The translations under genes and the position numbers were made by a program. Below the pieces are notes generated by a model, which saw nothing but the letters and a program-made list of their open reading frames with translations, was not told the DNA's origin and did no database searches. Below, in pieces: positions 53,918 to 56,954 of a stretch of 56,954 nt of DNA. Source of the stretch: Chrysiogenes arsenatis DSM 11915 (GTDB lineage: Bacteria; Chrysiogenota; Chrysiogenetes; Chrysiogenales; Chrysiogenaceae); assembly GCF_000469585.1 (NCBI RefSeq), contig NZ_AWNK01000010.1:98530-155483 (forward strand), in the 5' to 3' direction. Numbering within the stretch: the stretch's first letter is position 1; each line of letters opens with the position of its first letter.

Positions 53918-54180
53918 GGTTGTGGGAAAGACAGTTAAGAGAGCTGCCCTTGGCATGACGATAAAAAATTGACAACGAGCTTATCGATAAGGTACTAACT
54001 GGCTTGTTGCGTTTCCATGGAGTTGAAGGTAAATGGATCATTGTAGTGGATATTGAATGCCACAGCATCGGCACAAGTCGGTTGGTGGCTTTATTATCCA
54101 ATGGTTTAATTTGTGAGGGGGAATGACAAGCCGGAGGGAAACTTCAGATCAAGCTGATAACGGCAAAAGACCACCAAAAC
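53918..54180 (+). other. Region between ald and the integrase remnant
   Basis: Part of the 635-base gap before the first cassette gene; the rest holds the integrase remnant, palindromes and attI described below. Here a TTGACA (53969-53974) is followed by the perfect palindrome CTTATCGATAAG (53980-53991), but the -10 element is poor. From 53965 to 54123 one frame is open without a start (ELIDKVLTGLLRFHGV and on), ending at a TGA, and it is in the same frame as the integrase remnant that follows. I do not recognise it. Confidence 0.4.
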
Positions 54181-54360
54181 TGCTGGATCAGATGCCACAC
54201 GTTCCGTCATTCTTTTGCTCCCCATTTATTGGAAAGCGGTTATGATATTCGCACGATACAGGAGCTACTTGGTCATAATGACGTCAAAACGACCATGATC
54301 TACACTCATGTATGAAACCGTGGGCCCGCAGGTGCACGCAGCCCGATGGATGGACTGTGA
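54181..54360 (+). pseudogene. Integron integrase (intI) C-terminal remnant
   Basis: The frame reads [20 protein letters not shown] and then [20 protein letters not shown], the HxxR box and catalytic C-terminal part of a tyrosine recombinase. A TGA at 54313-54315 follows, where intI has a leucine codon, and then NRGPAGARSPMDGL and a final TGA; this RGxxGxRSP tail is typical of IntI rather than XerC or XerD. The rest of the gene (about 260 residues) is missing upstream. The tyrosine nucleophile region is present (MIYTHV). It is inactive. It points toward the cassettes, not away from them as in most integrons. Confidence 0.85.
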
Positions 54361-54363
54361 ACG

Positions 54364-54391
54364 GCTTTTTATCAGGATCCTCATAAAAAGC
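54364..54391 (+). repeat. 28-base quasi-palindrome after the integrase remnant
   Basis: Arms GCTTTTTAT and ATAAAAAGC surround CAGGATCCTC, so the whole is symmetrical except for one mismatched pair. It begins four bases after the final stop of the integrase remnant. It lacks a following T-run on the plus strand. It may be a terminator-like structure or a protein-binding site. Confidence 0.6.
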
Positions 54392-54470
54392 TGCGCTACA
54401 CGGTAGGGAATATCGTAACTGTATAAAAATATGGGGATTTTAGTGTTTTATTAATAAAATCGAATGGTGT

Positions 54471-54533
54471 CTTATGCGGATAAGGACGCCTGAAACGTCA
54501 TCTTATACGGATCCGCCTAAAAACAAGTTATGT
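54471..54533 (+). other. attI-like insertion site with two direct repeats
   Basis: The core site GTTATGT (54527-54533) is the point where cassette 1 was joined. It exactly matches the reverse complement of the inverse core site ACATAAC at 55334. Upstream lie two similar repeats, CTTATGCGGATAAGGACGCC (54471) and CTTATACGGATCCGCC (54502), which could be integrase-binding direct repeats such as DR1 and DR2 of known attI sites. AAGGAG for cassette 1's gene follows at 54540. Confidence 0.7.
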
Positions 54534-54552
54534 TTTACCAAGGAGAATGTGA

Positions 54553-55332
54553 TTGGATTCTAAACTGTTTGAGTTCACTGGTAGGTTGGAAAATGTGATA
54601 AGAGATTCGATCAGTGGCGTCTCTGGACATGAGTGGGACGAAGATTTTATTACCCGAAATTTACTCAGAGATCTTAGAAACGAATTATCTGGCTCACGGT
54701 TTATTGGCCGAGATAGGAAAAGCAGTATCAACTGGCAAATTTATAAGCTCAAGGGGACTTTTGAGAATAACTTTGGTGATGTTGCTTTAATTGTAAATAT
54801 TAATTATCAAGATGGAACATCGATTAATGGGGCTGCTTTTTTAGAGGCCAAAAAACGGGATTGGCGAAAGATAACTTTTGGGGCAATGAAATTGCCTCAA
54901 GCCAAGAAAATTCTAAAGAATGCGCCGCGCTCACAGTATTTACTTTATGACTATGAAGAGATAACCGGCTTCTTAAATGGCTCTTTATATTTGGAGGAGT
55001 TGAGTTACTACTACCACCATCGTGGGGGGAATGTTCCGTTCGCTCCAGTGACAAGAGCCGTTTGTGTGCCGCTTAATCTGGCAGTAGCAACTACTTCTAA
55101 GGATACTCTTCTATACCGTCACAGCGTTCCGTTTTCTCAGATGCTGTCAAACAGGTATTTCCAAGGTCTGGATTTAGAATTCGATGATACATCTAAGAAA
55201 GTAGCTACCGGGTTTTTGAAAAAGTTTGGACTTCCAAAGTTTATCGTAAAAATAGATATCGCTGAGCCAGGTTCAGATGGCGGAGATAATGACCTGCGCG
55301 TTAATCCGCAGGAATACCAGCAGATAGACTAA
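54553..55332 (+). CDS. Cassette 1: nuclease-like protein of unknown function
   Basis: A 259-residue protein from a TTG start with AAGGAG seven bases upstream; other start codons nearby run into stops. It has an N-terminal helical part (HEWDEDFITRNLLRDL), then FGDVALIVNIN (Asp76) and AAFLEAKKRDW (Glu98, Lys100), which together give the D...ExK pattern of the PD-(D/E)xK nuclease fold. No wider match is recognised. It fills cassette 1 from just after the core site to attC1. A defence role is possible, since integron cassettes often carry such genes, but this is inference. Confidence 0.7.
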   Translation: MDSKLFEFTGRLENVIRDSISGVSGHEWDEDFITRNLLRDLRNELSGSRFIGRDRKSSINWQIYKLKGTFENNFGDVALIVNINYQDGTSINGAAFLEAKKRDWRKITFGAMKLPQAKKILKNAPRSQYLLYDYEEITGFLNGSLYLEELSYYYHHRGGNVPFAPVTRAVCVPLNLAVATTSKDTLLYRHSVPFSQMLSNRYFQGLDLEFDDTSKKVATGFLKKFGLPKFIVKIDIAEPGSDGGDNDLRVNPQEYQQID

Positions 55333-55333
55333 A

Positions 55334-55403
55334 ACATAACAAAGTGCTGCTCTGGGGCAAAACTACGCTGCGCTTCGTTTTGCCCCAGAGCACAGCGTTA
55401 GGC
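55334..55403 (+). other. attC1 recombination site
   Basis: This 70-base imperfect palindrome closes cassette 1. The inverse core site ACATAAC lies at 55334-55340 and the core site GTTAGGC at 55397-55403. The inner arms GCTCTGGGGCAAAAC (55349-55363) and GTTTTGCCCCAGAGC (55377-55391) pair perfectly over 15 bases around a short loop. The size and form are typical of attC. Recombination would cut after the G of the core site. Confidence 0.9.
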
Positions 55404-55433
55404 CGTTCCCACACACTTTCCAAGGAGGTACCA

Positions 55434-55832
55434 ATGGTCTCTTTTGCTGATCCAGTAGAACAAGAAATCTGGTCCACCGTCCGTGCAATGAATGACGCCT
55501 GGACGAAGGGTAACCCCGACGACCTTTCGAAGTTCTTCCACCAAAATATGGTTGCTATCACTGCCACTGATCGCAACCGCCTAGATGGTGGGGCTGCCTG
55601 TATTGCTGGATGGAAGGGTTTCTGCACCGCCGCTCGTACCCATCGCTGGGAGGAAATCGACCCTACCATCCAGGTCTACGGCAACTCGGCAGTCGTTGCG
55701 TACTACTTCGACATGTCTTTTGAGATGGGTGGTCAAACAATCAACATGGGCGGCAGAGACATGTTTTTCTTCGTCAAGGAAGGTGAAAGGTGGTGGGCTG
55801 TCGCCGACCAGTTTTCTCCATATCCGGCCTAA
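55434..55832 (+). CDS. Cassette 2: NTF2/SnoaL-like (DUF4440-type) protein
   Basis: A 132-residue protein with the cone-shaped NTF2-like pattern: STVRAMNDAWTKGNPDDLSK with the typical helix, then FFHQNMVAI, then AVVAYYFDMSFEMGG and RDMFFFVKEGERWWAVAD, the last strands. CAAGGAGG lies well placed before the ATG. The stop TAA is inside the inverse core site of attC2, a common saving in cassettes. NTF2-like domains bind or transform small molecules; none can be named here. Base composition differs from the AT-rich third cassette. Confidence 0.82.
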   Translation: MVSFADPVEQEIWSTVRAMNDAWTKGNPDDLSKFFHQNMVAITATDRNRLDGGAACIAGWKGFCTAARTHRWEEIDPTIQVYGNSAVVAYYFDMSFEMGGQTINMGGRDMFFFVKEGERWWAVADQFSPYPA

Positions 55833-55896
55833 CCACTAGTTGCAGGGGACGCTGTGCGATAAAGCCGCGCAGCGCCCATGAACTCAAACGTTAGCG
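55827..55896 (+). other. attC2 recombination site
   Basis: A 70-base site ending cassette 2. The inverse core site GCCTAAC (55827-55833) is the exact reverse complement of the core site of attC1, and the core site GTTAGCG (55890-55896) begins cassette 3. Inner arms include AGTTGCAGGGGACGCTG and GCAGCGCCCATGAACT, which pair imperfectly with bulges, as usual for attC. Confidence 0.88.
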
Positions 55897-55918: not shown

Positions 55919-56902
55919 ATGAACAAAAAACTTACCTTGATTGGTGTTCTCGTTACTTCGGCTTTAATATCTGGGTGCGCCAGCTCGATAAAAAAAGAGG
56001 TTGCTGGTTATGAATACCACATTCAAGACAGCGCACAAAAGTCCAGTAGATTAGAGATGGAAATTAAAGGTATTGAACAAAAAATAGCAGCTACCAATAG
56101 CGAAATATCTGAAGCAAAACAAGCAAAAGCTAAAAAAGAACGGATGCTTCGAGAACTGTCAAACTCAAAGGATAGTTCAAAAAGGTGGCTATCCAATAAT
56201 AGGGATGTTTATGTAAATGGCCAGTGCATTACTCCAGACCATGGGAAAAAACCTGAACCATATTGTCCTTCACGCGAAAGTTCCAGAAAGCACGCCTTAG
56301 CATACTGTTCTTTATCAGTAGGTTGCGACGTTGCCATGCTAGCCGTTGGAGATGAGCTTGATACTTTTTCCAAAAGGTTTTTAGCTAGTGAGGCATGTTC
56401 AAGGTCTGTGGCCGCTCTCCAAAATAAAGGCTATCGAGCTGATCAAACAGTATTAAATGCTATAGAAGCCTTGTCAGATACAGGATGCAGAAACGATGGC
56501 GAAGGCTTTTGGGCAGGCTTGGCAGCCTTCGGAGGATGCATGATGAGTGCATCAATTAAAATAACAAAGATCAATGCTTTTAAAAACTGCGTCACAAATA
56601 ATCAAAACTCTTGCTATTCAAAATACACAGAATGGTATCAAGAGCCAAGTCAGCGAAAATCAAGTTGTTCATCGAGCGTCAATAGCATTACAGAATACGA
56701 AAGAAAAACCCCAATATACAGGCGTGAAGTGGCACAATATGGCAACACCATATCCGAACAAAACATTGAGGTTAGCCGCCTTAATACAGAGCTTACAAGA
56801 AAGCGCAGTCAGCTTTCTGAGCAAAACGAACGCAATAGAAGGTACTCCGAATTGCTTCAAGAAAAAAAGAAAACACTTGCGTACAAATTGATAGGCAAGT
56901 AA
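55919..56902 (+). CDS. Cassette 3: cysteine-rich lipoprotein with coiled coils
   Basis: A 327-residue putative lipoprotein. The signal peptide MNKKLTLIGVLVTSALISGC has a lipobox ending at Cys20. A coiled coil covers about residues 25-80 and another about 265-320. The middle is rich in cysteines (CPSRESSRKHALAYCSLSVGC, GCRNDGEGFW, FGGCMMS, NNQNSCYSKYTEWY), suggesting disulphides in the periplasm. No family is recognised. AAGGGG precedes the ATG. It looks AT-rich and is the third cassette gene. Confidence 0.8.
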   Translation: MNKKLTLIGVLVTSALISGCASSIKKEVAGYEYHIQDSAQKSSRLEMEIKGIEQKIAATNSEISEAKQAKAKKERMLRELSNSKDSSKRWLSNNRDVYVNGQCITPDHGKKPEPYCPSRESSRKHALAYCSLSVGCDVAMLAVGDELDTFSKRFLASEACSRSVAALQNKGYRADQTVLNAIEALSDTGCRNDGEGFWAGLAAFGGCMMSASIKITKINAFKNCVTNNQNSCYSKYTEWYQEPSQRKSSCSSSVNSITEYERKTPIYRREVAQYGNTISEQNIEVSRLNTELTRKRSQLSEQNERNRRYSELLQEKKKTLAYKLIGK

Positions 56903-56905
56903 GTG

Positions 56906-56954
56906 CGCTAACATACGGGTAACCTGCCAGCCAAAGCGGTAAGCCGATAGGCTT
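56906..56954 (+). other. attC3 recombination site, left part (cut by window edge)
   Basis: The inverse core site CGCTAAC (56906-56912) starts four bases after the stop of the cassette 3 gene. It is the exact reverse complement of the core site GTTAGCG at 55890. The right arm and the next core site lie outside the window, where a fourth cassette or the end of the array would follow. Confidence 0.75.

Follow-up and report, generated by a model that had tools for sequence, protein, structure and literature searches.

Anti-phage genes have reportedly been shown among integron cassettes only recently. The window analysed here, a stretch of 56,954 nucleotides from Chrysiogenes arsenatis DSM 11915 (contig NZ_AWNK01000010.1, positions 98,530 to 155,483), holds a cassette array near its end, and the first cassette raises the question of what its single gene encodes. 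The initial annotation proposed a stand-alone nuclease, possibly an undescribed phage-defence enzyme.

A cassette array with a decayed integrase

The features of the locus are listed below, with coordinates in the window unless a locus is named.

54184..54357, + strand: integron integrase relic, last 58 amino acids only, with one in-frame TGA (TIGR02249 positions 258-315 of 315, 100 bits, E 2.3e-28)
54515..54533, + strand: attI-like core, GCCTAAAAACAA followed by GTTATGT (from sequence; function suggested by position)
54540..54545, + strand: ribosome-binding site AAGGAG inside the cassette, 7 nt 5' of the TTG (from sequence)
54553..55332, + strand: predicted stand-alone PD-(D/E)xK nuclease, 259 amino acids, cassette 1 (open reading frame, homologues, invariant E30, D76, E98, K100 and Q116)
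54634..54951, + strand: predicted catalytic core, W28 to D133, with helix residue E30, G75-D76, E98-A-K100, Q116 and LLYD (invariant columns; order in low-confidence AlphaFold2 models)
55334..55403, + strand: attC of cassette 1, ACATAAC to GTTAGGC, a long imperfect hairpin (fold and sequence)
55434..55832, + strand: cassette 2, DUF4440/SnoaL-like protein (Pfam PF14534, E 2.6e-15)
55827..55896, + strand: attC of cassette 2 (fold and sequence)
55919..56902, + strand: cassette 3, coiled-coil, lipoprotein-like protein (open reading frame; weak coiled-coil Pfam matches below cut-offs)
L023:5542-6204, just past the window: cassette 4, 220 amino acids (PADLOC PD-T4-10_B, E 3.1e-37; no Pfam match)
L023:6286-7035: cassette 5, HNH_2 protein, HNH/REase-like (related to PADLOC HNH-type restriction enzymes, E 5.6e-22)

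The gene at 54553-55332 is confirmed as the first cassette of the array. It is a single open reading frame preceded by a core at 54515-54533, which we take to resemble attI core sites, and followed by an attC site (55334-55403) that starts 2 nt past the stop codon, with nothing else in the cassette. The cassette starts after the G at 54527 and, from the positions of the attI-like core and the attC, therefore spans ~54528 to 55397. The array comprises five cassettes, the fourth and fifth lying past the window end, and a transposase open reading frame, presumably of IS21 type, stands 3' of it at the contig end. Cassette 4 matches a defence model and would be the second defence-type cassette of the array; cassette 5 is possibly a third. 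Because the strict attC detector used here recovers part of the sites only (background ~0-2 per shuffled locus), arrays were also judged by eye on sequence. No Rfam model matched within the arrays at gathering thresholds, and a literature search for Chrysiogenes and integrons returned no paper. The attC of cassette 3 is cut by the window end (56906-56954; L023:5436-5531). An assembly N stands there between duplicated CGATAGGCTT, and the hairpin loop of this site is probably misassembled over a few bases.

The array is not a complete integron. The integrase is reduced to the 58-amino-acid relic with its TGA, and genome-wide nothing scored over the TIGR02249 cut-off (265 bits), other tyrosine recombinases lying far below it. 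With its own integrase a relic, cassette 1 is stranded and the array is beyond shuffling by that enzyme. The relic and the cassettes share one strand, the relic being inverted compared with a typical integron, in which intI and the cassettes diverge. Decay of the integrase also means that the argument that a first cassette is the most strongly expressed one, which had been made for a normal integron, is retained only conditionally; a scan of 54100-55450 for sigma-70-type promoters gave no match. Both observations would fit a gene that is a silent passenger in the host strain, with the integrase and possibly the promoter lost and the nuclease not made. However, the gene keeps an intact frame, start region and set of catalytic residues. 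The scan may also not cover the promoter type of this host, and weak or divergent -35/-10 elements would escape it; silence is possible but somewhat unlikely.

The open reading frame of cassette 1 is a real gene under purifying selection. Among 20,000 shuffles, none gave an open frame as long as that of the nuclease. The gene shares 65-72% nucleotide identity and 68-81% protein identity with its close homologues, with dN at 0.13-0.24 and synonymous sites saturated, while one pair of homologues gave a dN of 0.09 and a dS of 0.46. Translation begins at a TTG codon, and a Vibrio cassette (L006; 75% identical) likewise has AAGGAG, 7 nt and TTG just within its own cassette boundary. The GC content of the gene (0.41) is below that of the window (0.50).

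A predicted PD-(D/E)xK nuclease

Across 13 aligned homologues, down to ~21% identity, just 17 columns are invariant: W28, E30, T34, K65, G68, E71, G75, D76, G93, E98, A99, K100, Q116, L130, Y132, G205 and L208. The active-site residues named in the initial annotation, D76 and the E98-x-K100 pair, are thus real, being kept in 13 of 13 homologues together with E30, the Gly75-Asp76 pair and Q116, and their order is that of the PD-(D/E)xK motif, a conserved acid followed by (D/E)-x-K. Many PD-(D/E)xK enzymes are also expected to carry a helix acid and a glutamine. The invariance of Glu30 and Gln116 alongside the catalytic residues, across so divergent a family, upholds the nuclease call.

AlphaFold2 was run twice, on the full-length protein and on residues 1-145, with shallow alignments of eight sequences each. 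Both models (mean pLDDT 39.8 and 54.8) contain a helix at 30-46/47, strands at 56-65/66, 76/77-85 and 90-97, and a helix at 114-123, and this helix-strand-strand-strand-helix succession agrees with that of the PD-(D/E)xK core, though at low confidence. The placement of the catalytic residues on predicted strands is borne out in part by these low-confidence models: D76 opens the strand 76-85, but E98 lies directly after the strand 90-97. Foldseek searches of both models against the PDB gave no match at E <= 0.001. The predictions are thus too poor to speak either for or against a restriction-endonuclease fold. Because of the low model confidence and the lack of a Foldseek match the fold is not established, and the nuclease call therefore rests on the conservation pattern. 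That cassette 1 encodes a DNA endonuclease of the PD-(D/E)xK superfamily is supported by the full sequence signature, which resembles that of the superfamily in the spacing of D76 and E98-x-K100, in the helix acid E30 before and the helix glutamine Q116 after them, and in the order of secondary structure elements in the low-confidence models. No sequence match links the protein to the Pfam families described for the superfamily.

The description of the protein as undescribed stands with respect to the libraries searched. No model in Pfam, NCBIfam or PHROGs matches it, PADLOC-DB 2.0.0 holds no model for it or for three distant homologues, and the PDB sequences gave no convincing match. When 12 homologues were compared with Pfam, allowing E values as high as 10, all matches were chance ones, and a hit of the family profile to PrgA in the PDB (E 0.067) was rejected as a chance match.

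A rare family carried by mobile elements

Close homologues (68-81% identical) come from Marinomonas, two Psychrobacter, Enterobacter and a Vibrio plasmid. Distant homologues (~21-25%) occur on Providencia, Proteus and Morganella plasmids, on three viral contigs, and in three genomes, one enterobacterial, one from the Marinomonas family and one more from the order to which that family belongs. The family is rare: in most groups no more than ~1% of the genomes sampled carry it (samples overlap), and in the Marinomonas family 2 of 50 do. In the host's own phylum (51 genomes), the window gene was the sole match, with 0 of the 50 other genomes positive. A blastn search of 5,426 E. coli genomes gave no family member and tblastn of phage records no homologue, while scans of viral contigs with several queries returned the same three contigs only.

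The gene takes cassette form in four arrays, namely the window, the Vibrio plasmid and two chromosomal loci (L015 and L034) at which it is flanked by attC-type sites. The Vibrio plasmid array contains repeated ~120-bp elements and DUF3265/toxin-antitoxin cassettes. On a P4-like satellite contig (L018), Psu (2.6e-51) and the integrase flank the nuclease gene, and the psu-int site of such satellites is an anti-phage hotspot (Rousset et al. 2022, PMC9122126). This homologue thus resembles the P4-like satellite loci of that study. On a P2-like phage contig (L017), in contrast, the homologue adjoins gpS, a gene for tail completion, but lies on the other strand, unlike the gpA-gpQ hotspot described for P2-like phages (Rousset et al. 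2022, PMC9122126). A further homologue group sits on large Providencia/Proteus plasmids near umuDC and a homologue of DNA polymerase III theta.

Five homologues (L001, L003, L004, L019 and L034) adjoin genes that match PADLOC defence or candidate models, compared with a control in which 1 of 10 chromosomal window ORFs had a PADLOC match at 1e-10. In chromosomes, these neighbours are a KAP NTPase in Marinomonas (L001; PDC-S20), an AAA_13 ATPase (L003; PDC-S06), a CAP12-type TIR protein (L004; PDC-S35) and, at L034, a Ppl-like PHP-ATPase close to which a TIR-TM gene also lies (PADLOC). On the remaining contig (L019), the homologue lies within tail genes beside an FRG protein (PADLOC PDC-S15). 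No recognised defence gene was found near the homologue at L002. The possibility of a defence role raised earlier thus agrees with the context at most homologous loci, protection itself being what we infer from it.

Several neighbouring genes were recorded in passing. The FRG-domain protein (PDC-S15) at L019:3303-5419 and an adjacent 223-aa protein stand among phage tail genes, a candidate defence insertion site. A 169-aa protein 5' of the Marinomonas homologue (L001:5255-5764) has no Pfam or PADLOC match and presumably resembles ToxN/AbiQ-type endoribonucleases. The cassette-like array at L034 (G1364:C1:209000-223500), with the Ppl-like PHP-ATPase, TIR-TM and two HNH-like ORFs, looks defence-rich.

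No partner gene is common to the homologous loci, and a crude N6A/5mC motif scan together with the ORF lists revealed no DNA methyltransferase in the fetched flanks of homologues; the nuclease therefore appears to work alone. The term stand-alone is accordingly apt, given the single-ORF cassette in several arrays and flanks clear of methyltransferases in this crude scan. Type II restriction-modification was rejected in the same way, as the scan and the ORF lists showed no cognate methyltransferase beside the nuclease.

Proposed defence role and mechanism

Cassette 1 is likely to encode a single-polypeptide PD-(D/E)xK endonuclease from a rare, mobile and unnamed family, acting as a one-gene defence against phages or other mobile elements. 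A broader proposal, for which the chances appear about even, is that the family constitutes a hitherto undescribed, self-contained type of phage-defence nuclease that would discriminate foreign from host DNA without a methyltransferase or partner and that is carried by integrons, P4/P2-type elements and plasmids across phyla. The defence role is probable because the family recurs in mobile elements beside anti-phage genes, and it is also favoured by the frequency of PD-(D/E)XK domains among systems validated in E. coli: 13 of 31 additional defence systems contain them (PMC13092281). In the same study, 24 units were picked by remote homology alone, six of them PD-(D/E)XK, and one proved protective, making remote homology alone a poor predictor of defence (PMC13092281). 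Adjacency to defence genes is also expected for any cargo of mobile elements.

In the proposed mechanism, the N-terminal domain (~1-145) would cut DNA, with D76 and E98 as ligands of a divalent metal and K100 acting as a general helper, while the C-terminal part (~146-259), which includes the invariant G205 and L208, may provide recognition or oligomerisation. As no partner methyltransferase was seen, the nuclease is proposed to attack a feature of incoming DNA, such as ends, modification or replication intermediates, sparing the host chromosome. Modification-dependent restriction and the sensing of ends or intermediates are the two main options put forward for this, both being known strategies of lone nucleases (PMC12904381). 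The cassette probably moved from a gammaproteobacterial pool into an unrelated phylum by way of an integron, the integrase decaying later.

Under the first option, a sub-case of the favoured reading, the protein would be a type IV-like restriction nuclease whose C-terminal part reads a modified phage base while the N-terminal PD-(D/E)xK domain cuts nearby. The crude scan of homologue flanks, with no methyltransferase signature, suits such an enzyme, as does a gene that travels alone between phyla, independently of host methylation. However, Pfam shows no modified-base-reading domain, and conservation is poor in the C-terminal part, which is also short; this version is unlikely, if plausible.

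The second option would be a Shedu-like nuclease, quiet in healthy cells and triggered by phage ends or intermediates to nick or degrade phage DNA or all DNA, in an end-sensing or abortive response. Single-protein PD-(D/E)xK defence nucleases are known as a kind from Shedu (PMC12409362), and the present gene, predicted to have the same role, resembles Shedu (SduA, PF14082) as a single-gene anti-phage nuclease of this superfamily on mobile islands. It also combines a PD-(D/E)xK domain with a variable partner region in one protein, and type I Shedu binds DNA ends (PMC12904381). In contrast, its catalytic motifs fall at residues 30-133 of 259, in the N-terminal part, whereas type I Shedu has a regulatory N-terminus and a C-terminal nuclease (PMC12409362). 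Membership of Shedu itself is rejected on sequence, as none of 12 homologues matched PF14082 (SduA_C), even with E values as high as 10, and hhalign profile-profile comparison gave a probability of 0 against three SduA proteins, a weak test. A Shedu-like mode of action is likewise unlikely, if plausible.

A nuclease of mobile elements that serves repair, recombination, homing or element maintenance, not defence, is doubtful. It is favoured by the Providencia/Proteus plasmid group near umuDC and the DNA polymerase III theta homologue, and resolvases and repair nucleases are also found among PD-(D/E)xK enzymes. Nevertheless, the carriers are unrelated (integron cassettes, a P4 satellite, a P2-like phage, plasmids and chromosomal islands) and share no common partner, and the carrier sites are in many cases ones for accessory cargo or defence. 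That the gene is an addiction or toxin-type cassette stabilising the array is very improbable. Arrays commonly hold toxin-antitoxin pairs, the homologue-bearing Vibrio array among them, but the gene is a lone ORF with no conserved small partner at any locus and an attC 2 nt past its stop codon in an otherwise empty cassette.

Significance and comparison with described cassettes

If the favoured reading, a one-gene defence nuclease, is true, it would add to the integron anti-phage cassettes a nuclease family without a model in the searched libraries, which would therefore have been overlooked by annotation. It would also link integrons, phage satellites, P2-like phages and plasmids as vehicles of one defence gene, and the gene is small enough to be tested directly; it would also open to experiment the way in which a lone nuclease spares its host genome. 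Darracq et al. 2025 and Kieffer et al. 2025 are said to have reported cassettes for phage defence in sedentary and in mobile integrons. Compared by description only, the present cassette resembles theirs in being a small defence candidate of one gene that travels in cassette form, but differs in that its array lies in another phylum and its integrase is dead.
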